Of a stretch of 64,000 nt of DNA, positions 7,131 to 44,173 are shown one piece after another. The stretch is from Heliocybe sulcata (taxonomy: Eukaryota; Basidiomycota; Agaricomycetes; Gloeophyllales; Gloeophyllaceae). How positions within the stretch are numbered: the stretch's first letter is position 1; each line of letters begins with the position of its first letter. The DNA is taken from the NCBI GenBank assembly GCA_004369045.1, contig ML213507.1, forward strand, positions 1,476,914 to 1,540,913. Direction: 5' to 3'. Position numbers and translations under genes: made by a program. Under the pieces are notes generated by a model that was not told the DNA's origin, did no database searches, and saw only the letters and a list, made by a program, of their open reading frames with translations.

Positions 7131-7299
7131 CACATGCCCCTTTCCCAGGCCCGGGACGTTTGCTATGACAGTACTATGGCAAAGACTTCGTCGTGGATGA
7201 ATTAATGAATTTTATTGCATGCAGTAGTCCTCAACATTTTAGCTGGGCTTGTCTCAGATAAAGGATGGCAGGGCGGGCACTAGCGGCAAACGATGAACG

Positions 7300-21845: not shown

Positions 21846-22439
21846 CTTGCTTGACTCTCTCTCATCCTATGCGCCCAGTCGCCAGGCCCTTTATACGCGC
21901 GAGAGAAGGGTAATCGGTAGAGCCCTAGCATGAGAACAGGTGCACAAGAAAAGATGTGAGTATGGGATGCAGCCAGCTATGGGATGGGCGGGGTCATGGG
22001 AGCGACGCTCGGTTCAGGAGTACACCACATGTCCCAGCCGGCGGGTCACGCTTTGCGAAGGGTCGGGCGGCGTGCAGCTCAATACTTGCTCCTTGTCTAA
22101 TCGTTGTCTAATAGGAGGCAGTAATTTTAATTAAGACGAGAAACCTGAAAGATGTGTCGGGTAAGTACTGGTGACCGGTGAGGACGTCCATTCCGTACAG
22201 TACTTGAAGCTTGACTCTGGCAGAACCATTGCTAATCTCGAAGCCCGGAAGACTTATGCATAGATGTTACGTGAAAGTCCGGTGAGGGATTCGACGTATG
22301 GTGAGGAAGTTCACTAGTGCACCGTACGTTTAAGGCCTCCTGATCATGAGACGAAAACGAGCTACCTTCCATATCTAGCAGGAGCGTTTCTTAATTTAGA
22401 ATACTCGCCGTTGATGATGGCGGGATCAAGGAAAGCAGC
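21846..22439. other. intergenic upstream of the monooxygenase
   Basis: Apart from the TATA box, nothing was recognised up to the start of the DERA fragment. Confidence 0.45.
21890..21895 (-). promoter_or_regulatory. TATA box of the FAD monooxygenase gene
   Basis: The minus strand reads CGCGTATAAAGGGCC, about 45 nt upstream of the ATG at 21845, with a CT/GA-rich leader between them. Confidence 0.6.
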
Positions 22440-22791
22440 TAATTCTTGAAGCCTGGTATGCGCTACATCCATCTCTTACTGACTCAGAGTTTCTGCACGG
22501 CCTTCTAGTTGCGAAAAACGCCATGGCAGCGATCGTTTACATCAAGATGAGCAGGTGCAACCACGCCACAGGCCATCAAAGTACTGCAAGGATTACGGTG
22601 AGTTCTCGCGCAGTCTCTTCACCGCTATCGCCTCAAAACTAGTATTGCACAACATTGGGACATGCGTCGTGAATGGCTTCCCGCATAAATCAAACTTGCC
22701 GAATGACGACCTTGCAGACTTCGTCCGTTCACGCCAGAATGGTCCCGCTGAGATCGAAATGGTCGTGAACATTGCTCAAGACAATGTATAA
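22440..22791 (+). pseudogene. truncated deoxyribose-phosphate aldolase copy
   Basis: This is clearly related to the intact aldolase gene at 24384-25330. It begins inside what is intron 1 of the intact gene and matches HPSLTDSE, the CTGCAAGGAT junction, GFPH and DDLADFVRS.QNGPAEI, then stops at VVNIAQDNV. The first exon and the whole catalytic C-terminal half are missing. Around the second intron the donor GT has become AT, and the intron is shortened. About 30 nt are deleted after GFPHK. It cannot encode a working enzyme. It abuts the 3' end of the HNH gene copy on the other strand. Confidence 0.8.
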
Positions 22792-22823
22792 AATGAAACA
22801 CTACAGCCAGGAAATGGAGACGG

Positions 22824-24097
22824 TTAAGCCCCGACATCAACTCCTTCTCGTGCAAGACGTGTAATGGCATAATGTAGAACTTCGGATGAGCCTCCGTCAG
22901 ATGCCAGTACTGTCGACGCTTCCAAATCGCGATCCAAGTCGTCGAGATACTCGGCCGCACCTGAAAGATGCGCGACTTTCGCACACGCCGCGTGTAAAGC
23001 GAGGAGCTCTGCGGACGGAAGTGGAAGGTGCTCTGGATCAGGCGTGGTGAATGTTACCAGTTCAGTGGGAGGAATAAGATCTGAATCCGTCCCTCGAATG
23101 CGATAGCAATTTGGAGCGTCCTGGTAAGGCTATCCGTAAGAATATAGGGGTCTCCAGCACTATAAAGTACTCACCGTTGCCTCCAACCATAGATTCAGTG
23201 TATCAAAGAAATGGTGTACATCCCATTGTAGTGTCATGACATTGCTCAACGAGTGCACGTTGGCACCATTCAGCTTGTCAACATTGTAGCCAAAACGCTT
23301 GAGGACAGCTAGCACGGACGCCGCATAGTCTTTCTAGATTTAATCAAATTATCAATTGGCTTGCCCTATGCTAGGCAAGTATCTTACTTTGGTGGGATCT
23401 TGATCCGACTTTTCAGTGGCAACATCGAGATACGTGGAAGCCGGGACTATATGAGCGCATTGCGTGGCCACGGGGGGGGCCGCCAGACTTGGAGAACTCA
23501 TCACTCGTAACACCGAGTGCTTTCTTGGCCAACAAGTCGATCCTTCCCGAAATAATGCATCGATAACGATCGCGGACAAGGGCCTGCAGGGACGAACACA
23601 TCAGAATGCCAAAACAAGTACAGAAATGCTCGTGAACACAACTTGTGCCTTCGCAGTCTGATGATCTTTGGGCGCCTCATGAGCGGAAGCCTCCCGCAAG
23701 GATCGGTCCCTGTCAAAAGATGTGCGACTGGAGTTTTCAGAACTCGGGGGAGTCCTCGTTCTGAATTTCCTAACTGGTGGTGACTACGGTCGAGCACCCC
23801 TTGACGTGAAACGATGTACTCACATGCACGTATGAAGCAGTGAACAAAGGCCTCTCCCAGGGCGCAGAGACGAACGGTGTCTTGATCGCAGGAGTGGATT
23901 GTTATTGCCACCTCCGCGAGTGCCTCATCTGAAGGTGCATGCAGGAGTAAATAGCCCAATACTCGCGCAGAGATGAGGTCTTGTTGACTCGAGACGGTCT
24001 TTTCAGAATGCAAACAGGTATTATATGCACTAATTGCATTGGGTAAAGTGGCGAATTTGTGCTCGATTTCGGACAGGGGCGGCAGGGGCTCAGGCAT
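22824..24097 (-). pseudogene. HNH nuclease domain protein, frameshifted copy
   Basis: This is a near full-length homologue of the gene at 42244-43522, with the same five-exon layout. It starts MPEPLPPLSEIEHKFATLP and later exons read ALVRDRYRCIISGR, CAHIVPASTY, YAASVLAVLKRFGYNVDKLN and AKVAHLSGAAEYLDDLDRD, ending at TAA 22824. The HNH_2-type core falls across exon 3. In that exon a run of eight G (23472-23479; C on the coding strand) shifts the frame between SDEFSKSGG and the histidine-bearing TQCAHIVP, so the catalytic part is out of frame. All other exons are open. It is either a young pseudogene or an assembly error at the homopolymer. Confidence 0.8.
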
Positions 24098-24383
24098 AAT
24101 GAGTGTTCTGGTTCAAGTGGCTGGCTGTTCCGTATCGAGTAGGAGTTTCTCCGCATTTGGAATGGGCCAGGGCTGTGGCGAATGCATCTGTGCATACTAT
24201 CGTGCAGTAACGTATCACGTCTTTATGGTAATAACAGCGTCCCTTTGACGGTAGTCAGTTTCACTCGGGCTCGGTCGCATGTGACCTTCTCGAGGATACA
24301 ATTAGACCGAAGGGTCCAGCCACGCTCAAGCTGATTCCCGGAGCTTTCATGCGGCAAACTGTATATTGTTGACATCGTCCTCC

Positions 24384-25330
24384 ATGCCATCCACCACACC
24401 ACTCAAACGCGTCACCGACATTGCAAGGTTGATTGACCATAGGTGCGCCGTCCAACTCTATCATAGCGAGATCAAGAAGAAGTGCCTGATCCTTGAAGTT
24501 CGAAGTTTGCTACACCCATCTCTTACCGACTCAGAAATTCTGCGTGGTCTTCAAGTGGCAAAGGACGCTAAGGTAGCGACGGCTTGCATCAAGGTGAGTA
24601 GCACGCAAATCAGGGAGATATCTTCTATATGATCAAACCATCGGGAAAACACAGCCGTACAGTATCCCAGAAGCCATCGAAGTACTGCAAGGATCAGGGT
24701 GAGTCCACACGCAGTCGCCCTACCACTACCGCCCTAAAACAAGCGTCGCACAGCGTCGGGATATGCGCCGTGATCGGCTTCCCGCACGGGAACAGCACCA
24801 CCCACATCAAAGTCGCCGAAGCAGCCGCAGCCATGGACGACCTCGCCGACTTCGTCCGTTCACCCCAGAACGGCCCCGCCGAGATCGACATGGTCGTGAA
24901 CGTCGGAAAGGTTTTATCTGAGGATTGGGGGTACGTGGAGCACGAGATCGCCGCCATCAACAAGGCCGTGGTCCAACGCCGCGGTGCGCTGAAGGTCATC
25001 TTCGAGAACGACTTCCTCAGCACCGAGCACATCGTCCGGCTTTCCGAGATATGCACGCGCGTCGGGGTCGCGTACGTGAAGACCAGCACCGGCTTCGGGT
25101 TCGTCAAGGCCGAGGGCTCGGCTTTGTATACCTACAAAGGCGCGACGGTGGAGCATATTCAGGTGATGAAGCAGAATGTCGGGCCCTCTGTGCAGATAAA
25201 GGCTGCCGGGGGCATTCGGACCCTAGAGCAGTTCTTGCAGGCGTATGAGGCAGGGGCGACTCGCTTTGGTGCGACTGCCACGGAGGCGATATTGAAGGAG
25301 GCTAGAGCCAGAGGGTATCCGGAGGAGTAG
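24384..25330 (+). CDS. deoxyribose-phosphate aldolase (DERA)
   Basis: It cleaves 2-deoxyribose-5-phosphate into glyceraldehyde-3-phosphate and acetaldehyde, in the cytosol, for salvage of DNA sugar. Four exons (24384-24442, 24506-24593, 24655-24698, 24754-25330) join in phase to 255 aa, the usual length. LIDHSLLHPSLTD opens the barrel. EIDMVVN carries the catalytic Asp (about 109), YVKTSTGFGF the Schiff-base Lys (about 173), and IKAAGGIRT the second Lys (about 213). The start ATG 24384 is chosen because the join of exon 1 restores DHS/LLHP. It is divergent from the HNH copy ending at 24097 (287 bp apart). The sequence is intact, unlike two relics at 22.4 and 42 kb. Confidence 0.93.
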
Positions 25331-27789
25331 GTGATACGTTCTCCAGTGTACCATATAATACTGCTTCGAACTGGAGGGAAGAACAAGGAGACAACGATGA
25401 CGCCCGAATGGCGCGATCATTCATATCTTCGATGTCATTAACACCGCGCAAGGCCATTACGGTCCACTATCTGAGACGTTTGGACTCAACAGGGTGCAAA
25501 ACAGTAAGTGTAGTCAGTGCTGTGAAAGTTGCCACATGTTGAGTGTAACGCTTACTGATTGAAAGAGAAGTAGGCGTTCTTCATCGAGATCCCAGATGAA
25601 GGTGGTTGCAGGACGGCGGTAAAGAGTCGAGAACACATTTCGTCGGCAAGACTAAAGCAGAGATACCGACGATTGTGCAGCGCGCGTATGGTGGGATCGG
25701 CTGGAGCATGTGAAGCAGGACCAGGATTGAGAAGGAGTGGTGCCCTTCAGTTCGAATGATGTCCCAGAGCCGAAGCAATAGAATAAACACAGTTGAGCGA
25801 TAGTGCAGGTGCTCACCAACCCATACAGAACGTGAAGAAAGTGGTAGGAGGTAAAGGGACGATGGTGCCGTACTCGGGGGCTGCGTCCTCATGGGAGACG
25901 CGCATCGGTCAAGTAGAGTCAGAACTCGCGACTGAGACGCAAGCAAGAAGGAGAAGGCCACAGTACAAGCGCGCGAGGCCATAGCGGATACGGCAGCGTC
26001 GGTGTATTGTAAGATCTCGGGTGACGGACGCACTTGCTAGGGAGCGTGACAATAATTCCCGCTTCAGCGGAACATCGATCAGTACTCAAGTACTCATTAC
26101 TCAGTCTTAGTCGATGGACAAAAACCAGTGTGAATTGGCGATCGGGTTAGCTATGATCGTGAGATGGAGATAGGCAAGACGGAGAAATCGCAGCAGAACG
26201 GCTTCCGAGAGATTGCGCCAGAATACCTCTTCCTAGCCATCTCCTGGATGATTCCGAGAATAGAGCTATAGATCAGAAGCTTGGGGATATCAACGGCTGA
26301 AGAGGGAACTTAGCTTCGGGGATCAGGACCATGTGAGACCGAGCCCGTACGCTGGTCCCCTCAAGTGTTCACGTAAAACCCGTCAACGGCGCAATTGGTA
26401 TTGTCGCAAGGGGTGGAGCAGTTCAAACGGGGAGCACGGGAAACACTTGAGCTACGCCGAAACATGGCAGGCAGTACTCCATCCATAAACCCAAGACAGA
26501 CATACGCAAATATAACTTACTGAACAATGTGAGTAATACTCGCGGGAGAAATCAGGAGCGGTAGTACGTCAATCGGTGAATGATTATCATGATTGACACC
26601 ACTGAACTTCATAGAGTCCACTTATCAGGACAGAACCAGCAAATGCCTGCGAAGGATCAATCAAGGGCGAGCTTTACCAACGCGACGCAGCACAAGCCTA
26701 AAGGTGCAAGCAATATTCTCCATATAATACGCTGTCGAGACCGAGTTAGCGTTAGCTGCTTTCTGACTGCTTTCTGCTTCATGGCTTCATGAGAGGAGGG
26801 GGCAGGAGGTGGAAGGCAAAATCCGGCGAATTTCAATCTTGCAAGTACAGCCACCCGCCACCCGGCTATCACCTGCCCTTTCCATTCCTCTCAAACCTCT
26901 AAGCGGAACGGTCAGATATCATATACGATATCTCTGCCGTCTTCGACTTTGTTCAACACCATTCCTGTTGAGCTACGCAACGAATGCTTCAATAAGCCCT
27001 ACCCATATACACATTCTGTCTGCCAGTCCTCTATCGTACGCCAACTCCAGGAATCCCAATAATTTTCATAATTCTCGCGTATCGTTGGGACCCTGCTGCC
27101 TTCAATCAAACTCACGGGCAACAAATGGCAAATGCAGACCCGGCAGCACGTCTACATCACGGCTAGCCTGATTTGCCTGCTGATGCGTTGGAATGATCAT
27201 GAAATAAGTACGATCCTTGGGAACAACTCCATGAGTGATGGTGCCGGGCATCCTTGGGCCTTGCCCGAGCCATTGCTCTTGGGCTACCCTTCCGGAATCC
27301 GCCGTCACTTCAAATCATCTCCATGAAGTACTACGATAGCGGAACTCAATTTACAACACCGAGGCTACTTATCGTGCATCTATAATCATGCATTGGACCC
27401 AAGGACAGAGCCAGGGACGAGTATAGGCACCTCAGCATGCCCAATAAACTACATACGTACGTGCGAGCTTCCTTCGGCAAGGAGTCGACGTGAGATTTAC
27501 CAAAGGTCCGTGTCCTGTTTCCTCGTCACATTTCAGCCATTGATGTTCCCATCACAAGGTAGCATCTCTCCCTGACTTGGTGCCCTGCCCGACTTCCGCG
27601 GTCGGGGAACGGGCTTCCACCGCTCCAGGGCCAGATACCCTACAGATCGGTGCCGGCATACAACAGCTCCCGAATCACGACTATGTAATTTGATTTCTGT
27701 ATGTCCATTCGTTATGGTCTGTGGAACCTCGACTCAGGGAATATAAAAGATGCGCCTACAGCCTGATCACCTGCTCCGCAACCCTCGCC
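25331..27789. other. 2.4 kb gene-poor region
   Basis: Only short unrelated frames occur. The sequence at 25.58-26.03 kb has a charged plus-strand reading but no start or splice chain. Nothing else was supported apart from the TATA box near the right end. Confidence 0.45.
27742..27747 (+). promoter_or_regulatory. TATA box of the 2OG oxygenase gene
   Basis: GGGAATATAAAAGATG lies about 45 nt upstream of the ATG at 27790. This also argues against any start further upstream. Confidence 0.6.
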
Positions 27790-29292
27790 ATGGTCAGCCC
27801 CTCCGTCGACTTCAGCACCGTCCCTGTCCTGGACTACTCCAAGGTCTACAACTCCGAGACCCGCGATGAATTCGTCCAGGAACTGCGCAACGCCGTCGTC
27901 AACGTCGGCTTCCTCTACCTCGCGAACCACTCTGTAGACCCCTCCGTCGTCGCGCGCATGACGGAGCACTACATCCCGCGCCTCTTCGCCTTGCCCCAGG
28001 AGGAAAAGGACAAGATCAAGATGGCAAACTCCCCGCACTTCTTCGGGTACACGGCCTTTGCCCGGGAGTTCACAAAGGAAAAGGCGGATCTGAGGGAGCA
28101 GTTCGACTTTGGTGTGCCGTTCGAGAACAAATACCAGCCGGGCGAGCCGGACTACAAGAAGCTGTGGGGCCCTAGTCAGGTAAGAGATGCGTCGCCAACT
28201 TACCTATCGTATGATCTGACGTGAAAGTATCACAGTGGCCGAAAGAGGAGCTCATCCCCGGCTTCAAAGAGACGTGGAACACCTACCTCGAGCAAGTCGA
28301 GCAGCTCGGGTACGACTTCCTCGCGCTGCTCGCAGAGTGCCTCGGCCTCCCTTCAGACGCTCTGCACGAGTTCATGGACAAGGACAAGAACATCCAAAAC
28401 GCAAAGGGCAACATCATGCACCAGGCCAAGGTAGAGAAAACACACGACGGTTATCGCAGATGACTGATCTCTCCTCAGATCGTCAAGTACCCGCCAGTGG
28501 GCACCGTCGAGTCCAACCAGGGCATCGGCCCCCACTTCGACGCCGGCTTCCTCACCTTCGTACGCCCATCTTCATCCCTTAACAATACACAAATCTCATC
28601 ACGCACACCCCCAGCTCCTCCAAGCCTCCCCCAATCCCGGTCTCCAAGTCCAAAACCTCACCGGCGACTGGATCGACGTCCTGCCCATCCCCGGCACCTT
28701 CGTCATCAACATCGGGAGAGGTACAGTCCCATTCGCTCGCTCTCCCCGTCTGCCCATTCTAACGGCGTTACCTAGCCCTCGAGCACGTCACGCAAGGACT
28801 CGCGCGCGCGACCTGCCACCGCGTCGTCGCCCCTCTCCGCGACACCTCCTCCCGCTACTCCATCCCCTTCTTCCAAGCAATGCGCCAGGAGCTCCGACTC
28901 AACGACATCCAATTCGAGTGTACGTCCCTGTCTCTCAAGTTAGACACGAATGGGGTCTAACATTACTCAAACACAGTCGCCCCGGAAATCCTCGCGCTCA
29001 AGGAGAAGAGAGGATACGTGGCAGATCGTGAAGGTACGTCTAACAGGCCGTGGTATTTCCAGACCGTGGTGATCATGCGTGTCAGGTGTGAACTACGCCG
29101 AGTACTCTACCGAGCCAGCGGGTACGGTCGCCTTGATTGGCCGCGTCAAGTACGTATACCTTCGTTAGGGGTTGAAAATTCCGACACTGACTTGGCGGCA
29201 TGTCACACAGGAGCCATCCCGATGTCGCTCAACACCACTACCCGGAGCTGACGAAGCAGCTCTTCCCCAACGGATTGCCGGCTTGGGCATGA
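27790..29292 (+). CDS. 2-oxoglutarate/Fe(II)-dependent dioxygenase, IPNS-like
   Basis: Eight exons give a protein of about 350 aa starting MVSPSVDFSTVPVLDY, the typical N terminus of isopenicillin-N-synthase-like oxygenases (DIOX_N). The iron ligands are visible: GIGPHFDAGFLTF supplies His and Asp, and ALEHVTQGLARATCHRVVAP supplies the distal His. The 2-oxoglutarate-binding Arg lies in SRYSIPFF (RxS). The C terminus reads HHYPELTKQLFPNGLP. Family members hydroxylate or oxidise small molecules; the substrate is unknown. Introns are short with canonical ends; the first follows LWGPSQ. There is no signal peptide. No biosynthetic cluster surrounds it. Confidence 0.88.
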
Positions 29293-30034
29293 GTCAAGGT
29301 CGTACGCGGTGCAGCAGGAAGATATATATGTATATGAATATATAGTGTGTTAGATGTAGCATTGGCAATAAGAGGGTCATTTACTTGTATACGCAGGACA
29401 CCAACAAGGCACCATGTCCAGTCGCAGACTGCATCAACCGGGCGTAACCCGGTAAGACAACAATAACCCGATGGTATTGCAATGCAAGTAAATACACCAA
29501 TGAAAAAGTACATACACATGAAAACCGACAGCAATGCAAGTGGAGCGAGGGAGGTGGGTGTACAGACAAGGACTTCGACGAGGTACGGTTTTGGAAGCAA
29601 GAAAACACGCGATGAGAGATATACATACGAGACGGATGGCAGCACTAGATGGATAATAGGAACAATACTATCCGGCGGAAAGACGAGCGGAATCCAGCTT
29701 CTATCATACTTTGACATCACAGCTAGTGCGAGTCTCAGTAGTAGCCAGTCCGCTGCCGTCCGCCTAGGAAAGTAGCATGCAATATTAGAGCGTACAGATG
29801 GAGGAAGTAAAACTGAACCATAGAGTACACCAAAGAGAACCCAGCGACGTGCCTCCGCGCAACAATGTTGACGACCAGAGCCGACGCCACCGCTTCTGGA
29901 ATCTTGTCTTTGACATCACAAGTCGTGTGTGCGAGGATGCTTGACGCGGGAATGTGATGCCTTACATAGCCCGAGTCTGAATCGGGATCTTGACGTTCGT
30001 GAATGGAATTCGTTACTGTGGGACCAGCCTCTAG
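29293..30034. other. convergent intergenic region
   Basis: This lies between the 3' ends of the oxygenase (+) and the BCS1-like gene (-). It presumably carries both 3' UTRs. No gene was seen. Confidence 0.5.
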
Positions 30035-32656
30035 TCACGCCTGCGCGCTGGCATCGTCCGTCAGGCTAACCCAAGACGCCGCCTGCGGGGAATCTGGGGT
30101 TTGGTCCTCGTTGGACGGGAACGACACGGCCACAGGGACGGGAGCGGGTATGTTATTTTCGGTCTTCGGTTCACCTTCCGCAGGAGTCGCAGGGGTTGGC
30201 GATGGCACCGGCGTCGCCTCAGACTCTACCTTCTTTTCCTCCTCAGCCTTCTTCTGCTCTAGTAGGAGCTTTTCGAGCTCTGCGCGCTTCTCCTTCTCGG
30301 CTTCAATTCGACGCTTCTCGCGCTAATTGAGAATGATTGGTCAGCAGCGAACAGCAACACGTCAGAGTATCTCACCTCCTCTTTCTCCTTGGCCTCTCGA
30401 GCCTCCTTCTCCTTCCGGAGCTTCTCCTTGAGCTCGCGCTCTGAGATGACCCATGCAGCGGCGCCCTCAGCGGCAGCCTCAGGTCTGCTCTTATTCTTTA
30501 GAAGGTCTATATTAAGGAAAAAGCATATGTCAGCGCCGTGCCTACATGAACCTTCGAACGCACCAATCCCCTCCGCGAGGTCCCTCATCCCGCATCATAG
30601 GTGGAATCAAATCATGAGAAAAACCCGCCAGGGCACACAGACAAGTCGGTAACGGGACCACTCACATCCTTGCAGCGCAGCAACGCTAAACTCTTCATCG
30701 GGGATCGAGTCCGCGAACTTCTTTCCGAGCTCTGCGAGCTTGGCGTTGCTTAGCGGCACCGCCGAATGCTTGTAGCTGGCAAGGTGCTCCTCCACCGGTG
30801 GCGGGAGGTACGCTTGGTTCTGCACGGTAGCATACATGCTGCTCACTCTTGACCTCCCTCTAGAGGAAGACGACGCTCGGCTGGTACCCGACGGCGAGCC
30901 CGGAGTTGAACCCGTAGCGGACGACGACGCCAACGAGGTAGAGGAAAGGGACGGTAGAGAGAACAGCGAGGAAGGGATGCTGGACGACGGGGCAGGGGAC
31001 GGCGGGGTTGGAATGTCAATGCCTTCGAGCTCGGCTTCATCCTCGGGTCGCAACTTGTCCTCACCGTCGCGCTCATCAGTAGACGGGAAGAAGTTCCTAA
31101 AGAGCTGCTCGGCCTGCCACTTGCTCGCGTTCTTGAATTCGATCCAAACGTCCATCCGGCCGGGCCGGGACAAAGCCGGGTCGAGCCGCTCGAGGTGATT
31201 GGTGGTCCTGATTTCATCAGCGATATTGTTATCAGATCCCCGATCACCGCGTTATAAAACTTTCGGACACTCACGCAAAAAGCAGACGCCCCTCTGCGGC
31301 GGCGACACCGTCCAGCGCGTTCAGCAGGCCGCTCAGACTCAGCGTGTTCACGTCGCTGAGCTGGTCCTTTCGGCGACGGCCAGACGAGTCTAACGAATTT
31401 CCGTCGTCTTGATTGTTGCTGGCATTGTTATTGCTGTCCTTCTTGTCCTTGTCCGGCGTGCCAGTCGAGGTGCTGTCCCTGGTTACACTGCGCGTGAAGG
31501 CGGCGTCGAGGTCCTCGAGGAGAACTATGCATCTTGCCGGGACGCGGCCCATCAGCGTGGTGAGCGTGCTGTCATTGATCCACGAAGAGGACAGGGACAC
31601 GACGTAGATATCGAGCATAAGCTCGCCCGCGATTGAGTGGATTAGCGAGGACTTGCCCGACCCTGGAACACCATAGAGGAGATAACCGCGGCGGAAGGGG
31701 ATACCTCGGTCGGCGTACCACTACGAAGATGGTCAGTTTCAGCACGTACAGGATGGAGACGCTCTCTCGCACCTTCTCTGACTTTAGGAAGTCTTTCGTG
31801 TCGTCCAGGAGCATCTCCTTTACACCCGGGTTCAGTACTATGGACGACATGGGGCGCTTATGACGGGAGTCGGTCCACCGCCAGCTGCCATGCGAATCGG
31901 CAAAGTAAATCTGAATACGGTGCACCGCCTCGGCCTCATACTCTCTTTTGGCCTGCAGGACCAGCTGCTTAAGGATGGAGTTACTCCTGGCGACGACGCT
32001 ATCAAAGACGTCAGCAATCAACAATCGCCGCACTTGTCCAACCTCCTACCTTATCGACAGCACTTCGCAACCATTGGCCCTGCTCCTCTTGACTCTCAGC
32101 CAATGCCCTTTGTAGTAGATGGTATGAGTCGTGTCGAACGTCGGCTGGAACACAACCCGCGTCTTCACGCGTCCGGGGCAGTCATCATCCTCCGGCTCCT
32201 CGTCCTCATCCCCGAAGGAGTTGTCCGCAGTGGAGGAGTTGTAGATCGCGGACGAGGTGCGCGTTGTCGTCTCGAACTCTCTCGAGCGCTGCCACTCCGG
32301 GCGGCGCGAGAGCCAGAGCATGAGCCAGTCGTATGGGTAGTCCTCCTCGGAGAAGTGGGCCGTGAGGAAGAATGCTGTGCACGTAGGAATGACTCGTCAG
32401 AATGGAGTACAATACAGGTATCGTGATGAACGGATGACTCACAGTTGACAAAGTGCGACCTGCACACACATTGCGATGTCAACAACGCAGAACAGGTAAA
32501 AGAGAAGGGTGTGGTAAACGCTCACCAAGCCGAGGAACTCATCCTGCGGGCGGTCTCGACAGTGGTCCCGAGAACGACGAGCTTCATGCCGTCAATGACC
32601 GACGAGCCTCCGCCGCCGCCGACGAGGGGCTGCACCAGCGACTTGAGAGCGTCCAT
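30035..32656 (-). CDS. BCS1-like AAA ATPase, mitochondrial chaperone family
   Basis: It begins MDALKSLVQPLVGGG. The N-terminal region has a hydrophobic HFVNSFFLTAHF segment and the BCS1_N-like part with WLMLWLSRRPEW and GHWLRVKRS. The AAA core follows: Walker A GVPGSGKSSL, Walker B CIVLLEDLDAAF, a sensor region LSGLLNALDGVAAAEGRLLFA, and SRPGRMDVWIEFK. Between Walker B and the sensor lies a long Asn/Asp-rich insertion. After the AAA domain there is a Ser-rich stretch and a highly charged tail (REAKEKEE, EKEKRAELEKLLLEQKK). True Bcs1 inserts the Rieske protein into complex III, but this one, with its insert and long tail, is better called BCS1-like. Many fungal paralogues exist. Confidence 0.88.
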
Positions 32657-33099
32657 GACGGTTGTTTCTGCTCAAACCTGGTATGGTTTGGGGTGGGGGC
32701 AACGCTGCGAGTGGGGGCGGCAGGTTGGTGTGAACGCGGGGTATCAAGGGTGGTAGCGGTACTGCTATGCTTAGCACTGAATATATGCTGCTCGCTTAAT
32801 GCTGGCTGCAGTGACTCGAGTGTGAGTGAGTCAGTGTGCGCGGCGGTTGTGTGCAACGACGAGGACGCGTCAGCGCTTACGGGCGGAGATATGGCTAAGG
32901 GCAAGCCTCGTCCGCTGGGAGAATGGGCACGGCGCTTATATTCCGTTCAACGCCACCGCTTCGCTCTTGCCTTTTCTGCTCGACGCGCGCTTGCTTCGAC
33001 TTCCCGGGTCCCGAGACGCCACAGCACTGACTCGAGTCTGGCTATACTACACAGCTTTTCTACATACGACTCGACGACGGTAGAATATATCTTCAAGCT
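32657..33099. other. intergenic upstream of the BCS1-like gene
   Basis: This is the 443 bp between two minus-strand genes. No clear core promoter motif or other element was recognised. Confidence 0.4.
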
Positions 33100-34889
33100 T
33101 TAGGATATGTCCAGAGATAATCCTTCCACTGCCACACCCGCCTGCCACAACCCGAGCCGTCGCGCCATCCTGAGCAACATCGGTGCGGGGATAATAAGAG
33201 CGAAGCTTAAAGGCGTGAGCACGAGGAAGAGCAAGGTGAATAGGAGAGTTATCGACGGCTTGATGACTAGGAAGTAGAACAGCGCCCGATATGACGTCGG
33301 ATCTGTAAACTGCAAGCGGTGCAGGCCAGATGACGATGTGAAATGAACGGCAACGAGGCGATTGTGAAATAACCAGGAAGAAATTGTGATATGAGTGCAA
33401 GAAACGGGTCCGAGATAGTGGGATGAGCAACAGGTTGTTGTCAGAATAGGAAAGTTACAAGGTTTCGACTCATTCGACTCACCATTGCATACGTGTTCTT
33501 GTAGAACGATCGCTCGTAGACGAGGGGTGCCCTGTGCCCAGATCCGAACAATCGTGACTCCTCGTCCTCGTCTGTAGACTCTCGAAACCGAGAGAAGATA
33601 GGGAGAGGAGGGTAAGGCAGGGGATAAGGCAGGGGATCGTGAAAATACGATTGGAGGAAGAGCTGCGTGGAGGGAAGCGCCATTAGAACGAAGGTCAGAA
33701 TGCAAATAAGACAGAAGTGAGCTGGGCGTACCTCGGCTCGAGAGAAGGCTCTTGCGCCGAGAAGGTTGAGGAAGCAGAGGACGGCGCCTAAAGGAAGGGC
33801 CATAAGGAGGGTTGTACCTGTCTACATTCGAGAGGAGTGTCAGGTTCGTTCTAGGACGGTTGTATGAGGATGGAATGGCACCATGGTTCTAACAATCAGA
33901 ATCTTCATGGAAGCACGGAACGTGGCAAAAAAGGAACACGAATGGCACTCTCAAGTCAAGGTAGCATGGACAGCGGGAGAGAGGGAGCCCCGGGGAGGGA
34001 TGATACTCCAGATGCTGGTACAACGCTGTATGAGGCAAAGATGTGCATTTGGCCTGTCCCGAGACCGTTACCCTGCTACTCATACGGCCTGTACCCAGAA
34101 AAACTGCAGCTCCAGAACTTGAATCCGCTCATATCACATTCACAACAGAGTCCCATGGGAGCATAACGGACTTAACCCATCGGAATGAAGGACACTCACC
34201 AGCGTGAACACAAACAGGTATACCCAAACTGCTAGCGCGAATGGGAAGTTGACGACCAGAAGATGCGCCAGGCTCATCCAGTATCGCCGTCTTGCAAGCG
34301 GCCTCCAATACATCCTCCAGCTTCTTGACCGTCTGTTCCACGCAGCTGAAGGGGCTGACGACTCCTCCGATCCTTCACGCGGCGGGTGAGTGGGTAAAGG
34401 TGCATAATCACGATCGTTCTCGTCCAGATCCATCTCGTCGTCCGACTGGAACATCGAGAACACTGTATGCGCGAGAGATGGTGGACGAGTGGGATGTGTC
34501 CCTGAGCTCGCGGTCGACAAGTATGTAGACGTGTACGACGTTGTCCGAGGTCGAGGAAAAGGTGGCGGATTCACCGGCACTGGTGTAATATTGGGATTCG
34601 GATTTCTGGACAACCGCAAGCTGCGAGGCGATGACGGTGAATCCGGTGACAGTAGCGGCACTGTCTCGTTGATGTTGACAGCTAGAGTATCCAAGATCTC
34701 ATAGTTATCTTGTCCTTCACCCGTGGTAGCGGTAGGAAACCCGACATGCTCTGAACCTGAAGCAAGCGAGCGCCGTTGTCGCGTGCGTCTTGGTCTGTGC
34801 GATGGATACGGTGGAGGCGGATCGTGGGCGTCGACGGCGTTGCCCAGAAGAGGTCCAAGGTCGGGAGCGGCATCCTGCATAGTGGTCAT
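33100..34889 (-). CDS. multi-pass membrane protein, putative sensor-like domain
   Basis: Four exons (34200-34889, 33732-33821, 33483-33662, 33100-33309), all joined in phase 0, give 389 aa. The first about 205 residues are Pro/Ser-rich and cytosolic-looking (MTTMQDAAPDLGPLLG, PPPPYPSHRPRR). Then RRRYWMSLAHLLVVNFPFAL starts the first membrane segment. TGTTLLMALPLGAVLCFLNL is the second, and the last exon holds two more (FYFLVIKPSITLLF and PLSFALIIPAPML). The pattern of paired membrane helices with a short loop resembles the bacterial-type putative sensor domain (PF13796 type); this is inference. A 378-nt intron (33822-34199) is unusually long for this window. It ends about 100 bp from the tRNA gene. 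Confidence 0.7.
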
Positions 34890-34990
34890 GTTTTCGATTG
34901 AAGATAGGTATAAGGAGAGCCGACACCAGCTGACGCGCGGGCGAAGTATGCCTGGTTGGTTCTCATTATATGTAGCCACGCCACAACCAA

Positions 34991-35080
34991 GACACGATGG
35001 CCGAGTGGTTAAGGCGAGAGATTCGAACTGCACATATCTCTTGGGCTCTGCCCGCACAGGTTCAAATCCTGTTCGTGTCG
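34991..35080 (+). tRNA. tRNA-Ser(CGA) with 8-nt intron
   Basis: The acceptor stem GACACGA pairs with TCGTGTC (35073-35079), and the discriminator is G. The D arm is GGCCGAGTGGTTAAGGC. The anticodon stem AGAGA (35017-35021) pairs with TCTCT (35037-35041). The loop reads TT-CGA-A, then the intron CTGCACAT (35028-35035), then A. The long variable arm TGGGCTCTGCCC and the T arm ACAGGTTCAAATCCTGT confirm a class II serine tRNA. Body and T arm closely follow fungal tRNA-Ser(CGA), whose genes commonly carry an intron at this place. Confidence 0.95.
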
Positions 35081-35108
35081 TTACTTCTGGACTTGTCCCT
35101 GAGCAAGC

Positions 35109-35113
35109 TTTTT
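35109..35113 (+). terminator. RNA polymerase III T-run terminator
   Basis: AGCTTTTTGGG lies 28 nt downstream of the tRNA end. A run of five T on the coding strand is the usual pol III stop. Confidence 0.55.
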
Positions 35114-35544
35114 GGGCGCCTCATACGATCACACGTTTTACGATGTTCTCGCACAGCTCGGGTTCTTTTCATTTTGCTCCCCGAGAAAGCAATGTCGTTA
35201 CCTCCGGCGACTCCGGAGCGGGAAGAGCTATATATGGAAAAGGCGGCCGTTCTTGACTGTTCCCGAGGCCGCAGCCGGTGGCGGCACGGGCGGGTCGCGG
35301 TCGGGGGGCAAGGAAATTCCCAGCATCATTTCAAGGCAGTTTGCCCTCGACTCCTTTCCTACCGTCGCATCATCCGTCTTCCTCGTCGTTACCGCCAGCG
35401 TCGGCCTCTCGTTCTTTTCTTATTTTATTTGCCATTTGGCTGAATCTGCGTGGCAACGGCGAATCCGCATCCCAACAAGGCCTAGCTCGCTTTCGTTGAC
35501 CTTTCTTCCCAACCACCACCACTGTTTTCCCCTCCGTACATATC

Positions 35545-36814
35545 ATGGGTTGCGTTCAGTCCGCCGGCGTTGATGAGGAGGCCAAGGCCCGTGAGTGCTG
35601 ACGCTTTGTCTGCGTCGAGGGTGTGGCTGACGGCGGGCCTCGCAGGCAACGATGAGATCGAGAACCAGTTGAAGCGGGACCGTATGATGGCGAAGAACGA
35701 GATCAAGATGTTGCTTCTCGGTGCGGGCGAGTCGGGCAAGGTGGGCGTGCTTCGGTGGACGAGTGTGCAGCGCTGACCCCCCGCCAGTCAACCGTCCTCA
35801 AGCAAATGAAGCTCATCCACCACGGCGGCTACAACGAGCAGGAACGGGACTCGTACAAGGAGATCATCTTCTCCAACACCATCCAGTCCATGCGCGCCAT
35901 CCTCGAGGCCATGCCCCAGCTCGACATCCCGCTCCAGCCCCAGAACGACGCCCGCCGCGCCGTCATCCTCTCCCTCCCGCCCCAGATCGAGGGCGACGTC
36001 CTCCCGCGCGACGTCGCCGACGCCGTCCGCGGCCTGTGGCGCGACCCCGGCGTCAAGGAGGCCGTCCGCCGCTCCCGCGAGTTCCAGCTCAACGACTCGG
36101 CCGTCTACTACTTCAACGCCATCGACCGCATGGCCGCCCCGGGCTACATGCCCACCGACCAGGACATCCTGCGCTCCCGTGTCAAGACCACCGGCATCAC
36201 CGAGACCACCTTCAAGGTCGGCGAGCTCACCTACCGCCTCTTCGACGTCGGTGGCCAGCGCTCCGAGCGGAAGAAGTGGATACACTGCTTCGAGAACGTC
36301 ACCGCGCTGGTTTTCCTGGTGTCGTTATCGGAGTACGACCAGATGCTGTACGAGGACGAGAGTGTGGTAAGTGCCGTCCTGGTCGACGACGACCTCACGT
36401 AATGATCTCTCGCCCAGAACCGTATGCAAGAAGCCTTGACGCTGTTCGACTCGATCTGCAATTCGCGGTGGTTCGTCAAGACGTCGATCATCCTGTTCTT
36501 GAACAAGATCGATTTGTTCGCGGAGAAGCTGCCCCGCTCGCCGCTGGGCGACTACTTCCCCGACTACCAGGGTGGCGACAACTACGACGCCGCCTGCGAC
36601 TACCTCCTGCACCGCTTCGTCTCGCTCAACCAGAGCGCGGCGACGAAACAGATTTACGCGCACTACACGTGTGCGACCGATACCCAGCAGATCAAGTGTA
36701 AGTCTGTGCTCTCACGTGTCGTAACCGATCTGACCGTGCCTGTTTGCAGTCGTGCTGAGCGCGATCCAGGACATCCTACTACAACTCCACCTGCGGGAAT
36801 GCGGGCTGTTGTAG
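35545..36814 (+). CDS. heterotrimeric G-protein alpha subunit (group I, Gpa1-like)
   Basis: Five exons (35545-35590, 35646-35740, 35788-36366, 36418-36697, 36750-36814) give 354 aa, the standard length. MGCVQSAG carries the myristoylation glycine and the palmitoylation cysteine. GAGESGKST is the P-loop, [12 protein letters not shown] is switch II, NKID and TCATD are guanine-binding, and the tail ends LRECGLL. The cysteine four residues from the end fits the Gi-like class. It relays receptor signals at the plasma membrane; in basidiomycetes this group is tied to pheromone or nutrient sensing. It lacks the extra insert of yeast Gpa1. All splice phases agree. Confidence 0.96.
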
Positions 36815-38678
36815 CGTGTGTCGGTCAGGCTCTCGCATTGTCGCTTACTACATGTACATGAACACTGGCCGCCCCGGTTCAATGCAACGTCTACTCCTGG
36901 ATCTTGGAATGTTATTTTCTAATCGTTTAGTATTCTCTTCTCTTGTGGTAACCCGGGTGGCGCCGAGTAATTTACAGATACATTGGACTCGGGGACCAGC
37001 GCTTTTTCTCACTTATTTCCTTTTTACACTGTGTATATATGGCCCCCCTGTTCAGTAGTCCGCAATCTCTATGCAATTCCGCTCCTTTAGCCTGATATAT
37101 ATGTCCTCCTCATGTTGTCAATTTATAATGCTTACAGTAATGTCGTGAATTGGAATGCTCGCAGTTTCCGCGCGGCAACTGCCGGTGCCACATTCTATGT
37201 GTGGCTCAGCTGACTGTGGAGAAGCAGGTTCGAATGAGGACTTGGATAGGTAAAGGATCTGCTTGCCACTGACCAGCATGTTGTCGTGAGCCGCGGGTGA
37301 TGCTACAGTAGAAGGGAGAAGAGGAAAGTAGTGTCACGTGACATACCCTTCCACACGGCTGTGGCATCGCTTAGTGCGTGCAGACCTTCAGCCCATCCCT
37401 GCTTCAAGCACGTCTGGTTGTCTCAATTGTACTTGATTTGTCGAAGATTTGTATCAATTTTGAGCTAATTTACGGTGCGACTACTCCTCAAGATCGCGTT
37501 CATAATATACGTCGTCAATATTCATGGCGTCTATATATTAGAATCGAGACATCGCCATTTGAGCCGAGAACCATCGCGCTGTACCACAAATTCGGGACAA
37601 ACGAGAACGGCCTCGACATGTCGGCAGTGGGCACTAGTACTGTCGTCCGAGGTAAACCTCCTGCGCATCAAGGCCACAATCAAGGTCCGACTATGATGGT
37701 GAGAGGAAATTCTCCGATTAAAGAACTTTACTGACACGCGATACGTTCTGGACGGCACTCGACTGGTGCTGAGGCACGCAATGGCATGGAAAGATGGTGC
37801 ATAGCCTATGATACGGATGTCAAGATGTCGGTGGGCTTAAGCCCTCTGCCACAAATTTAGGTGTGATTATACTCATATCCCCGGCATTTCGACTGTTAAC
37901 GTCTTATCCCTGTTACGCACTCATTATCCTAGAGGGCTTATGCAACTCAGCTCCCCGACATCAACTAGGCTATTCCCTATTCATGATCAAAACGGAGAGC
38001 CTGATCAGGTCACTAGATGACGAAGACATCACCGAGGTAGGCTGACATATCAGTACACCACCATTGCTCCCAAGTACCACAGCGGGCGCCTCGCTAACAT
38101 CATACGCTCAGGAGGATGTTTCAGAGGCTGGAAAAATAAACTGTCCGATTTGATACCTCCTGGAATCTGCTCAGTCTCAATGACCGGTTGGAACAGGGTC
38201 TGATGGATATCAACGCATTCGTTCCGTAGCGCACTCTGCTCACTGATCAGATCAGACGTAGGGCGTATGACTGGTGATGGGGTCAATAATAACCCCCGGT
38301 ATACGGTTCTGCCCAGGGTGTTCCACCCTCATATTAGACGCCACCATACGTCTGAAGCAAGATTAGCGTTTACAAGGCTATGATGCGACGCAGGCGATTT
38401 AATGAGTAAGTCACACCTGGAGATGTTATGGCTCCTGCTGCAGGGCGTCCAGCAGCAAGTCATTCAGGCAAAGTAGAACCTTTCCGACAGTGCTAGTGAA
38501 CGCCAGATCAGGTAGTAATACGCCGGCGTCGTTGGATATTGCACGTGAATTTTCAGCCGGGCGAAGGCCACAAAGTCGTTAACCCGGCGAGCCGCTTACA
38601 GTCTACTCTCGACGTCAAGAAATCCCTACGTAAAATTGTCAAGACGAAAACATATAAACAGAGGTAGTTTCCGGAGTA
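36815..38678. other. 1.9 kb convergent intergenic region
   Basis: This lies between the 3' ends of G-alpha (+) and PTR2 (-). An unassigned 118-codon plus-strand frame at 37378-37734 has no family or splice partner. Nothing else was seen. Confidence 0.5.
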
Positions 38679-40759
38679 TTATACTGTCTTTTCGTTGACG
38701 ACATGCTCTGGTTCCTCCTCCTCGTACGTCATAAACTCCTCGTTATCGATGTGCTTGTACCTGAACCAGAAAATAATGGTCTGCACAAACAGCGCGATAG
38801 CAGGTCCGGCCCAGACCCAAATGAGATGCGGCTAGCATGACAGCAGTTAGAGACAAATGTGACCAGAGCAAAGGCAAACTCACGTCGGTGATAGCGGGCG
38901 ACAAAATCTCGCCCAGTGCAGACGAGAGCGCGGTGGTGAACAGGAAGATCGACATCACGAGCGACTTCATCGACTTCGGGCTCCGCGCATACGCCATCTC
39001 GTACGCCGTCACGTTGCACAGACACTCGCTCAGCGCGCCGAGCGCGTAGTTCGGGATCTGCCACCACACGCTCACGGGCGACACGCCGTCGCCGTTGTTG
39101 GCGCACATCGTCGCGTAGTACCCGCACGGGTTCGTCTCGTAGATGCGGTACTGCACGATCGCGGCGATCGCGCCCGACAGCGCGGCGATGAAGAAGCCGA
39201 GCGTCATGCGCTTGATGGGCCCGAAGTTGATCTTGTTCCGGCGGAGGAAGGGGTAGAGGCCGTAGGTCATGATCGGGACCGCGACGATGATGGTCAGCGG
39301 GTTAAAGTTGCTCAGCAGGTCGTTCGGTGCGCCCCTTGTGGTCATGGTCGAGCCTGAACGAAAGCGATGTTAGCTGTACAAGCCTAGCTGTACAAGGGGA
39401 AGCTTGCCTTGGTTGGTAGAGACACTGCCAATACCACCGTCGTTGATGTTGTAGATCGGGAAGTAAAGGAAGATCTTGCACGCGTCGAACGTCCGGACGA
39501 CGTCGTCGACGAACTTGTCGTTCCAGTCAATCGGCTTGCCCCGGAGCGTCGTGATGCCCTTGGCGGCCAGCCGGGACGGTTTCGCGGCGTCCCAAAAGTC
39601 CTTCCTCCAAAACTTGCCCTTGTTCTCCTTGGCGGCAAGACCCCATATCTTCATGACCCTCCCGAGCTCGGAGCCGCTGGGCGGACTTTGGATGGTGCGG
39701 GTGTAGAGGAAGGCGAGGAGCAAGGGGAGGAGCATGAAAATGATCGTCGGCAGGAGGAACGCGAGCCAGTAGCCCACTAGCTTCTCGGAATACGTCGTCG
39801 CAAGCGCGAAGAAGGCACCGACGTTGATAAGGGCTGAAGGGTGCTGTCAGCAACATGTGCTGACCCATACAGGAATCTGCTTACCGTAGAAGATCAGCAT
39901 CAGACGCTGGATCGTGGCCTCGGGGTCGACAATGACTTTTTCGCCAGATTTCAAGACCTTGGTGTACGGCCTCTGGTGCTGGTACTGGTCCAAGATCGTC
40001 GGTGCGACGTTCGGCTTAAAGATACCGGCACCGATAGCCAGGACGAACAAGCTGATGATGAACGGCGCGATGCCTCGTCCGGCCTTCAGGACACTCGGCA
40101 GCGCTCCGAACACCATAATGATGTGGGCGGCAAAGCAGACCAAGACACCGATCAAGATAGTCTTGAAGCGGCCGAGTTTGGTATCAGCAACCCAGGCACC
40201 GAAGATGGGGACAATGTAGGCGAGGAATTGGAAGAGAAGGACGAAGGCGTTGGCGAACTGAAGGCCCTTGCCCAATGCACCCGCCGTCTCCTCTGAACCC
40301 TTGGGAGGCGCTCCCGCACCGTTACCTGAGTCTGTCGTCAATGCAAGCTCTGGTCACGCGAGAGGGTACATACCGCCTACCGGCAACGGGTACTCCATAA
40401 AGTTCGAGAAGACGGTCTGCGCGCCATAGTACGACGCACGCTCGGCGAACTCGACGAAGCAGAACAACCAGCAGACCCAGGGAATGGAGTCGGTGACTTT
40501 GCGCAGAGTGGCATGTTCCTCCTCAGTGGGGACGGGGTACTGATCATGCTCGTCGGTGGTGGCTGAGCGGCTGGAGCCCACTACGTCCACGTCTCCGTGC
40601 TTTTCGTCGATGAAGCCATCCGCGACAGCAATGGGCTTGATGACCTCGCCTGGAACGCGTGTCGTCAGGACGTCGGTCGTAATGTGGTCAGCAGCGACTC
40701 CAGCTGCGAATTGTAATATTAGAGCAGACTCAAAGGCTTTAAAGATAGAACGTACACAT
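38679..40759 (-). CDS. POT/PTR2-family proton-coupled di/tripeptide transporter
   Basis: It imports di- and tripeptides with protons at the plasma membrane. The first coding exon is only ATGT (40756-40759). A GTACGT donor joins it to CTGGAGTCGCTGCT, giving MSGVAADHITTD. The family signature EFAERASYYG follows in the first membrane region. Further helices include FANAFVLLFQFLAYIVPIFG, GVLVCFAAHIIMVFGALP and FLLPTIIFMLLPLLLAFLY. A cytosolic loop follows (KPSRLAAKGITTLRGK), then the second helix bundle with VSVWWQIPNYALGALSE and the ending PAITD/PHLIWVWAG. The acidic tail is NEEFMTYEEEEPEHV. The sequence is intact. Confidence 0.93.
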
Positions 40760-41918
40760 GCTGGCTTCCTTTCAGAACGGGAGTTCTAAGGTGGGTGGTG
40801 ACAGTCCTCGACACGGAGCCGGCAGGCAGGTTTCGCCGTCCTGTATTCTTATGCTCAACGAGCAAGCCGTCATTCCATCTTTTCTTATCAGCAGGCACCG
40901 GAGCACGCGATACGGAACTGTTATCATGCAACGGAGGACTATATACCTTGCCGAGAATAAGCTTCACCTCATTGGTCGGTTGTCTTGGGCGGGGCTAGTC
41001 CTGGCAGCCCACCATGTGAACAACCCGACGAATAGTTGGGAATTCGACCGCCAAGAAGTAATCGATCTGGGATGCATCATAGCACTGAGATGCGAGTGCC
41101 TCTTCCGGCGACTTACGCCTAGGTACTGCTGGTGATATGTAGCCTGATGGAAATGGACCTTGCGCAACCCAAGGACGCCGTCGCCGCGTGCGAAGTCTTC
41201 CCCTTCAGTAGTACCGACGGTATGTATGAACAACGCAAGTCGTCGTAGGCCAACCCTAGCTACACATCGGGCTGCGTCTGGATCAGAGAGACCATGGGCG
41301 GCAGGAGAGCTCCGAGAGTGCGACAGATAGCTTACCGATGGCGACTGTGGCGTGCCACTTGAAGTTAATTTGCACGCTACCCCAGATGAGATATAACAGT
41401 CTGATGGTGCAAAGTTGTGCCTGGCGATGGGGCATATAAGAAAGATTTTGGAGACTGTATTTGACGCTTATCATGATCGCGGTAAGCCAATGGATAGACG
41501 GGTCGAGCGCTGGAGATGGACAGGAATCGATATGGCACGCACCTCGGTCGTACCCAGGCTGTCGCTCCTAGGAGTCGAGATTCAATCTGCTAGGGGAAGC
41601 GATTGGTGATTGCCAGAGCATTCAAGTCAGGAGTCGACGACCGACAGCGACTGAGGAATATAGGCGACGGCGGCATGATCTGAACCAAATACTATATACG
41701 AAAGTACCTATATACTGTCAGCACTTCTAAGGTTTAGGGCGTTGATAGTTAAGTAGCGATGAGCAGTAGATATTGTCGACGTCTAAGATCCTATGATCCT
41801 TGGAGAGCCCCGTTGGCAACGAGACCCTCCTTTGTATAGCTGCAGTCGCAGTCATACCAAAGCGGGTCGGCCCCCTGCCTCACACGGATGCCCACAGCAG
41901 CACATATACACCTACGTT
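40760..41918. other. gene-poor region upstream of PTR2
   Basis: A minus-strand TATATAG near 40938-40945 could serve PTR2. An unassigned minus-strand frame at 40964-41233 shows no family. Otherwise nothing was recognised. Confidence 0.4.
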
Positions 41919-42110
41919 CTACTTCATCACCTGGATATGCTCGACCGTCGGGCCTTCGTAGGTATATAAAGCCGAGTCTCCGACCTTGACGAAGGCGGAA
42001 CCAGTGCTGGTCTCAGGAATGTGACGCCGATGAGAGTGCATACCTCGGAAAGGCGGGCGATGTGCTCGGCACTGAGAAAGTCGTTCTCGAATCTCGAAGA
42101 CGATTTTGGC
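41919..42110 (-). pseudogene. 3' relic of a deoxyribose-phosphate aldolase gene
   Basis: The minus strand matches the C-terminal part of the aldolase at 24384-25330: FENDFLSAEHIARLSEVCT, then SALYTYEGPTVEHIQVMK, ending in a TAG where the intact gene has Gln. Where the intact gene encodes YVKTSTGF with the Schiff-base lysine, this copy has lost a base, so the frame shifts and the lysine codon is gone. The N-terminal two thirds are absent. It lies divergent from the HNH gene at 42244, as the intact aldolase does from the other HNH copy. Confidence 0.82.
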
Positions 42111-42243
42111 AGAGCAGGAGTAGGACGTCGCCCGAACGGAGGAGCGAGACTGAAAGGCAAGTAAAGTAGTAGAGGCCCGACAGTGCGCGGAAAGAAAGAC
42201 GAGGTTAGCACTGAAGGCCACAGCTTAATCCAGAACACTCATT

Positions 42244-43522
42244 ATGCCTGAGCCCCTGCCGCCCATATCTGAAATCGAGCACAAATTCGCCACTTTACCC
42301 AGTGCAATTAGTGCATATAATACCTGTTTGCATTATGAGCGGTCCGTCTCGAGTCGACAACACCTCATCTTTGTGCGAGTATTGGGCTATTTACTCCTCT
42401 ATGCACCTTCAGATGAGGCACTCGCAGAGGTGGCAAGAACAATCCACTCCTGCGGTCAAGACGCCATTCGTCTCTGCGCCTTGGGAGAGGCCTTTGTTCA
42501 CTGGTTCATACGTGCATGTGAGTACGTTGTTTCACGTCAGGGGGTGCCTGAGCGCAGTCACCACCAGTTAGGAAGTTCAGAACGAGGACTGCCCCGAGTT
42601 CTGACTCCCCCAGTCGCAACTCCTTTGATAGTAGAGACCGACCCTTGCTGAAGGTCTCGATTCAAGACCCACCCAAAGATGATCAGACAGCAAAGGCACA
42701 AGTTGTGTTCACGAGCATTTCTGTATTTGTTTTGGCGTTCTGATGCGTTAATCTCTGTAGGCCCTCCTACGCGATGGTTACAGGTGCCTTATTTCGGGAA
42801 GATACGACCCATTGGCCATGGAAAGGCTCGATGTTCCAGTTGATGAGTTCTTCAAGTTTGGTCCTGCCGCCAGCACAGAATGCGCTCATATTGTTCCCGC
42901 TTCGACGTATTTCCATGTCAAGACTGATAATTTAGATCAAGATCCCAATAAAGTAAGATACCCACCTAAATATCGGGCACAAGTCAATTGACAGCTCGAT
43001 CAAATGTAGGAAAACTATGCGGCGTCTGTGTTGGCTGTCCTGATGCGTTTCGGCTACAATGTGGACAAACTGAACAATACCAACGTACATTCGTTATCCA
43101 ATGTCATGACCCTAGAGAAGAGTACGCACGACTTCTTCGATCAATTACGTCTATGGTTGGAGCCAACAGTGAGTGTTTCACCGCACCGGGGACTCGTCTG
43201 TCTTCCCTAACAGCCTCGCCAGGACACTCCGAATTGCTATCGCGTTCAGGCGTTGGATCCAAGGTATACTCATCCAGGGAGACAGCTGGTGACATTTAGC
43301 ACACCTGATCCGGAGCACCTTCCACTTCCGTCCGCGGAGCTCCTCGCTTTGCACGCGGTATGTGCAAAAGTCGCCCATCTTTCGGGTGCGGCTGAGTACC
43401 TCGATGAGTTGGATCGCGACTTGGAGATGTCGAACGTATTGGCATCTGACGGAGGCTCGTCCGAAGTCTTGTATCATGCCATTACACGTCTTGCGGGGGA
43501 AGGACTTGGTGTTGGGGGTTAA
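42244..43522 (+). CDS. HNH nuclease domain protein (HNH_2 type), intact
   Basis: Five exons (42244-42517, 42568-42701, 42761-42952, 43010-43168, 43223-43522) join in phase to 352 aa. The N-terminal helical part is MPEPLPPISEIEHKFATLP with YLLLYAPSDEALAEVA. A short Ser/Arg-rich linker leads to QTAKAQ/ALLRDGYRCLISGRYD, the start of the HNH_2-like fold. ECAHIVPAST supplies the Cys-His pair, and NVMTLEKSTHDFFDQLRLW the later Asn and His. The end reads LHAVCAKVAHLSGAAEYLDE. This family is very numerous in mushroom genomes and its biology is not known; nuclease activity is inferred from the fold. It is paired with aldolase debris. Confidence 0.82.
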
Positions 43523-44173
43523 TCTTTTGCGTTTTATGGTTGTATGATTCTATCGAACGATTCTATTCACCTCAGCTTGGCTTACAAGACACTTGCACGG
43601 AAAACGGTACAAGGTATGTGGGAGGCTATCCACATTGAAGCATGCGACACGAGTAACAGTGGCCCGTGTCACTTCTATGTCAAGACCGTTGTGAGTGTGG
43701 CCTTCCCAGAAGGCCACTACCGTCTCTGGTTTCATGCCTGCCGCCAAAGACGCAAGGTTTGGCCTTTCAAGGATCTCGCAGTTTCGAGGACGGCCTTCCA
43801 CAGCCGGCCCCAAATGTGAGTCCCACAGGGGGCGTCCTATCTCCAACGTGCTGTCAGTGGCCTTGCTGGAAGCCCACAGGCAGCCTTGTGTCCGGTCTAG
43901 GCGTAAACGCTCCTGGGGGCGAGTCTACTATGCTGCGAGGGTGCCAGAACAACAATCCTAGACGACACTTGCTCCGAGAGTAGTGCAAGGTATGTGCAAG
44001 ACCATCCGTAATTAATCACACAACGCGAGGACAGCGCGGTAGGTATACAATGACAACAACAGCTCCATTAAATAACGGGCTACTGGGCGCGAGTAAGGAC
44101 TCGGCCAGTCGAAAACACAGTAACATCGAGTACCAATCCACGAGAACAGCAGGACAAAGTAACAACTCAAACG
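43523..44173. other. convergent intergenic region with imperfect direct repeat
   Basis: This lies between the HNH gene (+) and the kinase gene (-). It holds two imperfect copies of a roughly 70-nt segment at about 43588-43655 and 43964-44036, both with GACACTTGC and CAAGGTATGTG in the same order. No gene was recognised. Confidence 0.4.

Follow-up and report, generated by a model that had tools for sequence, protein, structure and literature searches.

Two inverted HNH_2 genes, separated by about 18 kb in the window analyzed here (64,000 nucleotides, C5:1476914-1540913, from an assembly of 31.6 Mb in 51 contigs), each lie beside one half of a broken deoxyribose-phosphate aldolase (DERA) gene, and the two halves are complementary. 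On balance, this arrangement probably arose by local duplication of paralogues, an inversion of approximately 19 kb that split a spare DERA copy, and conversion between the HNH copies; the inversion, the conversion, and the sequence in which these events occurred are inferred from one genome. One such inversion explains the split DERA better than the copying, in inverted form, of an HNH-DERA pair that was already assembled.

Genomic setting

The window is fungal DNA with intron-bearing genes, the introns of which are short, and on the right it reaches the end of a 1.54 Mb contig. Because the genes are spliced, single-frame ORF calls fragment them. Four of the 10 neighboring ORFs had a Pfam match, namely, a DIOX_N dioxygenase domain, a G-protein alpha subunit, a PTR2 transporter, and a BCS1-type lid domain. 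We looked for a telomere next to the HNH cluster, and a run of four TTAGGG units was found nowhere in the assembly; the locus is therefore not labeled subtelomeric. The features of the locus are listed in Table 1.

Other repeats and frames were observed in the same region. Positions 6559-7133 and 7314-7866 form an inverted repeat (66% identity over 605 columns), and the two ORFs there had no Pfam match. An open frame at 63624-63998, also with no Pfam match, runs off the contig end and contains a CxC...CxH stretch, which in our view resembles a SWIM zinc finger. Three short direct matches (70–81%) connect 13167-13859 with L020:1499-2200, just outside the window and approximately 22 kb away, and suggest another local duplicate.

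Table 1 Features of the HNH_2-DERA locus, in window positions
Feature	Position	Strand	Structure or extent	Evidence
Left DERA relic	22414..22770	+	5′ half, last part of intron 1 through mid-exon 4	DNA alignment, tblastn
Left junction	22771..22823	.	DERA 5′ half joined to HNH 3′ flank	DERA match stops at 22770
Left HNH_2 gene	22824..24097	-	five exons, broken frame	exon map, three-frame translations; PF13391 match at C5:1500115-1500381
Intact DERA	24384..25330	+	four exons, 255 amino acids	open spliced frame, GT..AG introns
Right DERA relic	41829..42091	-	3′ half, with stops and deletions	tblastn, blastn
Right junction spacer	42092..42223	.	DERA 3′ half to HNH 5′ boundary, 132 nt
Right HNH_2 gene	42244..43522	+	five exons, open frame, 352 amino acids	exon map, PF13391
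Possible further remnant of HNH 3′ flank	43964..44007	+	44 nt	weak: 75% to 43588-43631, E 0.066
Third HNH copy, truncated	60593..60781	-	3′ end of the coding region (approximately 90 nt) and 3′ flank	77% to right copy, three-way alignment

A single-copy DERA gene and two complementary relics

The intact DERA gene is assembled from exons at 24384-24442, 24506-24593, 24655-24698, and 24754-25330. Its protein belongs to family PF01791 (27.6 bits; cut-off, 23.8) and matched 37 distinct solved-structure sequences, most of which are named deoxyribose-phosphate aldolase (best E value, 2.7e-35); residues 12-244 gave a near full-length alignment to the solved DERA sequences. A profile search of the 31.6 Mb genome returned this gene as the sole PF01791 match, and a whole-genome tblastn search with DERA hit four places, all in the window: one at the gene itself, one at the left relic, and two within the right relic. 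Thus, neither the PF01791 profile nor the DERA sequence found any DERA-like sequence in the genome outside the window.

The left relic aligned to DERA 24460-24901 with 279 of 442 columns identical, gaps counted. The right relic matched DERA from about 25001 to 25297 by tblastn, with TGA and TAG codons inside, and its DNA match was clear across DERA 25001-25182 (blastn, 82%). The relics do not overlap: the 5′ half lies on the left and the 3′ half on the right, and approximately 99 nt of DERA are absent between them. Compared with the intact gene, the left relic differs at 44 of 240 coding sites and the right relic at 56 of 289, third positions being the most changed in both (22/81 and 26/95, respectively); the intron sequence of the left relic differs at 34 of 117 sites. 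Non-overlapping pieces with similar divergence fit two halves of one DERA copy. The earlier note, which was made from the sequence of the window, overlooked both this complementarity and the closeness of each broken end to an end of an HNH gene.

Inverted HNH_2 genes with mosaic identity

The HNH repeat units at 22802-24117 and 42224-43544 are inverted relative to each other and share 79.8% identity over 1325 columns (E = 0). This HNH duplication is real and old, and it supports a local origin of the segmental duplication that was one of the two possibilities raised earlier. The right protein belongs to HNH_2 (PF13391), scoring above the cut-off of 21 over residues 145-247, with a modest 30.2 bits (E value, 4e-7), and its nuclease activity is only putative. 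By eye, it contains AHIVP, LSNVMTL, and HDFFD, and the pieces of the left copy contain AHIVP, LSNVMTL, and HHFFD; these stretches may hold the His, Asn, and His of the HNH motif. The frame of the left copy breaks at a run of eight C in exon 3, near 23.47 kb, which may be either a real lesion or a homopolymer error.

Identity between the two copies is uneven: 92% in exon 1, 86% and 88% in introns 1 and 2, and 69% and 59% in introns 3 and 4. At silent sites (four-fold degenerate plus intron), 138 of 159 were identical in the exons and introns 1–2 block (87%), compared with 125 of 189 in the rest (66%); the difference was significant by Fisher's test for a block boundary chosen after the identity profile had been seen (P = 9e-6; four-fold sites alone, 0.036; introns alone, 7e-5). 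Homology between the copies ends sharply 20 nt before the start codon. The mosaic identity suggests gene conversion, or else a crossover within the 5′ block. For the pair as a whole, dN/dS was 0.35 by NG86 (bootstrap, 0.25–0.51) and 0.49 by YN00, which indicates that constraint acted on the protein through much of its past; when restricted to the 5′ block, the ratio was 0.62 (0.33–1.22), which is not distinguishable from 1.

In addition to these two copies, which have the full gene plan and had been recognized in the earlier note, the window contains a third, truncated copy that had been missed. The 3′ flank of the right HNH copy is also present in the third copy. The possible further remnant downstream of the right gene matched the flank of the third copy over 38 nt (79%, E 0.005).

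Junctions between the DERA relics and the HNH genes

At the left, as noted earlier, an HNH gene is flanked by a truncated and an intact DERA, and at the right, the inverted HNH gene again stands beside a DERA relic. The accompanying claim that the genes meet each time at their 5′ sides is true of the intact DERA. It is also true of the truncated right relic, with the spacer in between, but the left relic meets the 3′ end of its HNH gene. The broken end of the left relic passes into HNH 3′ flank within approximately 10 nt, and this flank could be traced by eye against the third copy to about 22780. On the right, the spacer sets the broken end 132 nt from the HNH 5′ boundary, with the polarity that one inversion predicts.

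The right spacer had no detectable relative among the sequences compared. A DERA remnant hidden in it, with which the halves would abut, was considered but gained no support: when the spacer was compared with DERA 24850-25000, 551 of 2000 shuffles scored at least as high, as did 508 of the 634 other 132-mers of the window, and after removal of the last 20 nt, 742 of 2000 shuffles matched or beat the score. A local DERA alignment extends some 40 nt into the spacer, unsupported by the shuffle test.

Related HNH loci elsewhere in the genome

Outside C5, at least nine related loci were identified by a match to PF13391 or to the protein of the right HNH gene. They are spread over seven contigs: C1 has three of them, and C49, C38, C45, C22, C8, and C4 have one each; the C38 locus matched the C-terminal part of the protein only. 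No DERA sequence was found at these nine loci. Two kinase matches on C38:1493-6072 have the scores and frame lengths of two at C10:1109879-1114458 in reversed order, and C38 may therefore be a second haplotype or a duplicated contig. The C1 copies (C1a, C1b, and C1c; at 40.6, 45.2, and 54.4 kb, partly within C1:40001-46500) have the orientations -, -, and +, are approximately 75–80% alike, and form a cluster 40–55 kb from the contig start that also lacks DERA. Linked HNH paralogues in both orientations are thus found on C5 and on C1, the pattern expected of local segmental duplication with inversion. Six of the eight contigs carrying related loci have them within 55 kb of an end, a zone that includes at most 17.7% of the genome (binomial P of approximately 6e-4, for a limit picked after the placements had been seen and for contig ends that may be repeat breaks and not chromosome ends).

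Homology was confined approximately to the gene body in C5 left/right, C1a versus C1b/C1c, C49 versus C1a/C1b, and C8/C22, and in each of these comparisons it ended, by eye, no more than about 20 nt from the start-codon position; between C49 and C1b, it reached about 45 nt further 3′. C1b and C1c additionally share flanking sequence, approximately 270 nt on the 5′ side and 100 nt on the 3′ side, which shows that some copies came from plain segmental duplication, and the introns retained in the HNH copies exclude retroposition.

The ends of eight HNH units were compared with background pairs. Terminal inverted repeats were not above background in any of the eight, the lowest value being that of the left copy on C5 (34 of 278 background pairs as good). 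Target-site duplications were at background in seven of eight, with no consistent word; the C22 unit alone had an 8-nt word common to both ends (2 of 489 background pairs). The shared ends or target-site duplications sought on the advice of the earlier note accordingly stayed at background apart from this one word. Among the frames listed, inspection by eye of those flanking six of the nine other loci revealed no recognizable interrupted gene. A search of the HNH protein against viral_contigs gave six pattern matches and no confirmed relative, and no paper on HNH_2 families in Agaricomycetes was found in searches of open-licence papers. One paper names an HNH endonuclease as one of four fungal genes that were transferred and have a Ka/Ks above 1 (PMC11708051).

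Origin of the arrangement

Reversing the segment between the two junctions rejoins the DERA halves in the correct order and on the correct strand; one inversion is thus enough to explain where they lie. In the course of events that we favor, an HNH_2 paralogue cluster near the contig end would have duplicated locally, along with a partial second copy of the adjacent single-copy DERA. An inversion that broke inside that second copy on one side and at or within the HNH pair on the other would then have split it, leaving the 5′ half at 22.4–22.8 kb and carrying the 3′ half to 41.8–42.1 kb, and each half would have come to adjoin one end of an HNH copy. The second breakpoint may have lain between two head-to-tail HNH genes, or the crossover may have taken place inside two inverted HNH genes, one of them sitting within the second DERA copy. 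Later, the inverted HNH copies would have exchanged sequence over the 5′ block, unless the crossover itself lay there, and the present outcome would be one intact DERA, one open HNH gene, and one HNH gene with a broken frame. Against an inversion stand the DERA stretch missing between the halves and the unexplained right spacer; moreover, complementary pieces could result by chance if two copies were each partly lost independently, and relics of similar divergence are also expected from two duplications at about the same time.

The observation behind the inverted duplication of an aldolase/HNH module proposed earlier is confirmed. As an account of the whole locus, the duplication and inversion of a complete divergent HNH-DERA pair, with the right copy later losing the intergenic region together with the 5′ half of DERA, seems to us possible but doubtful; this course also requires the separate copying of a DERA 5′ fragment to the left of HNH. 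It would explain why HNH and the DERA 3′ half have the same relative order and orientation at both places, but it needs more events and turns the complementarity and the adjacent broken ends into coincidences. The complementary relic halves fit a simple duplication of the finished pair poorly, and nothing of the intergenic region 24118-24383 has a counterpart at the right site in a search to E 0.1.

Insertion of a gene-sized HNH unit into a DERA copy, followed by recombination with an inverted HNH gene that parted the halves, is unlikely. On the map, undoing a crossover inside the HNH genes does give DERA 5′ half, antisense HNH, and DERA 3′ half, and several HNH pairs lose homology close to the start codon; but the unit ends generally lack the marks of insertion, and the long flank common to C1b and C1c points to ordinary duplication for some copies. 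Gene-limited homology is the reason to retain the broader reading that fungal HNH_2 genes are mobile units of gene size, extending from the start codon to slightly beyond the stop and copying without promoter or flank, one of which entered a duplicated DERA before HNH recombination inverted the segment. The absence of terminal repeats and near-absence of target duplications make this quite improbable. The DERA halves could also be the split target of a free-standing homing endonuclease; no other HNH copy adjoins DERA. Spread of DERA as genome-wide cargo of HNH, the other origin raised in the earlier note, is rejected as extremely improbable: its sole support is the repeated adjacency of the two in this window, but DERA-like sequence was found nowhere else in the genome, and the related loci on seven other contigs lack it. 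Terminal repeats above background, consistent target duplication, and unlinked copies with the same cargo, as in a DNA transposon, were not found. The earlier note had held that arbitrary breakpoints with no shared ends and HNH copies elsewhere without DERA would reduce the case to an ordinary local duplication; this is largely what we observed, with no DERA-linked HNH copy off C5. The locus looks like ordinary turnover of a paralogue cluster, and nothing found speaks convincingly for a mobile element.

If the preferred reading by inversion holds, the locus preserves in compact form the rearranging effect that a small fungal multigene family has on its surroundings: repeated HNH genes served as recombination sites, and a neighboring metabolic gene was duplicated, split, and lost. 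If HNH_2 genes are gene-sized mobile units, a poorly known HNH family gains a mobility function; if neither holds, the locus is ordinary genome turnover. Compared with DeoC (PF01791), the intact DERA retains, in the alignment to its best solved match, the stretches VKTSTGF and KAAGGIRT, which presumably carry the active-site lysines, whereas the two relics each retain just about half of the gene. The genome contains several HNH_2 (PF13391) paralogues. It is known that inversions can break at duplicated genes and that copies of such genes can become pseudogenes. Here also, inverted homologous genes flank the segment, and one gene copy appears to be split between its ends.
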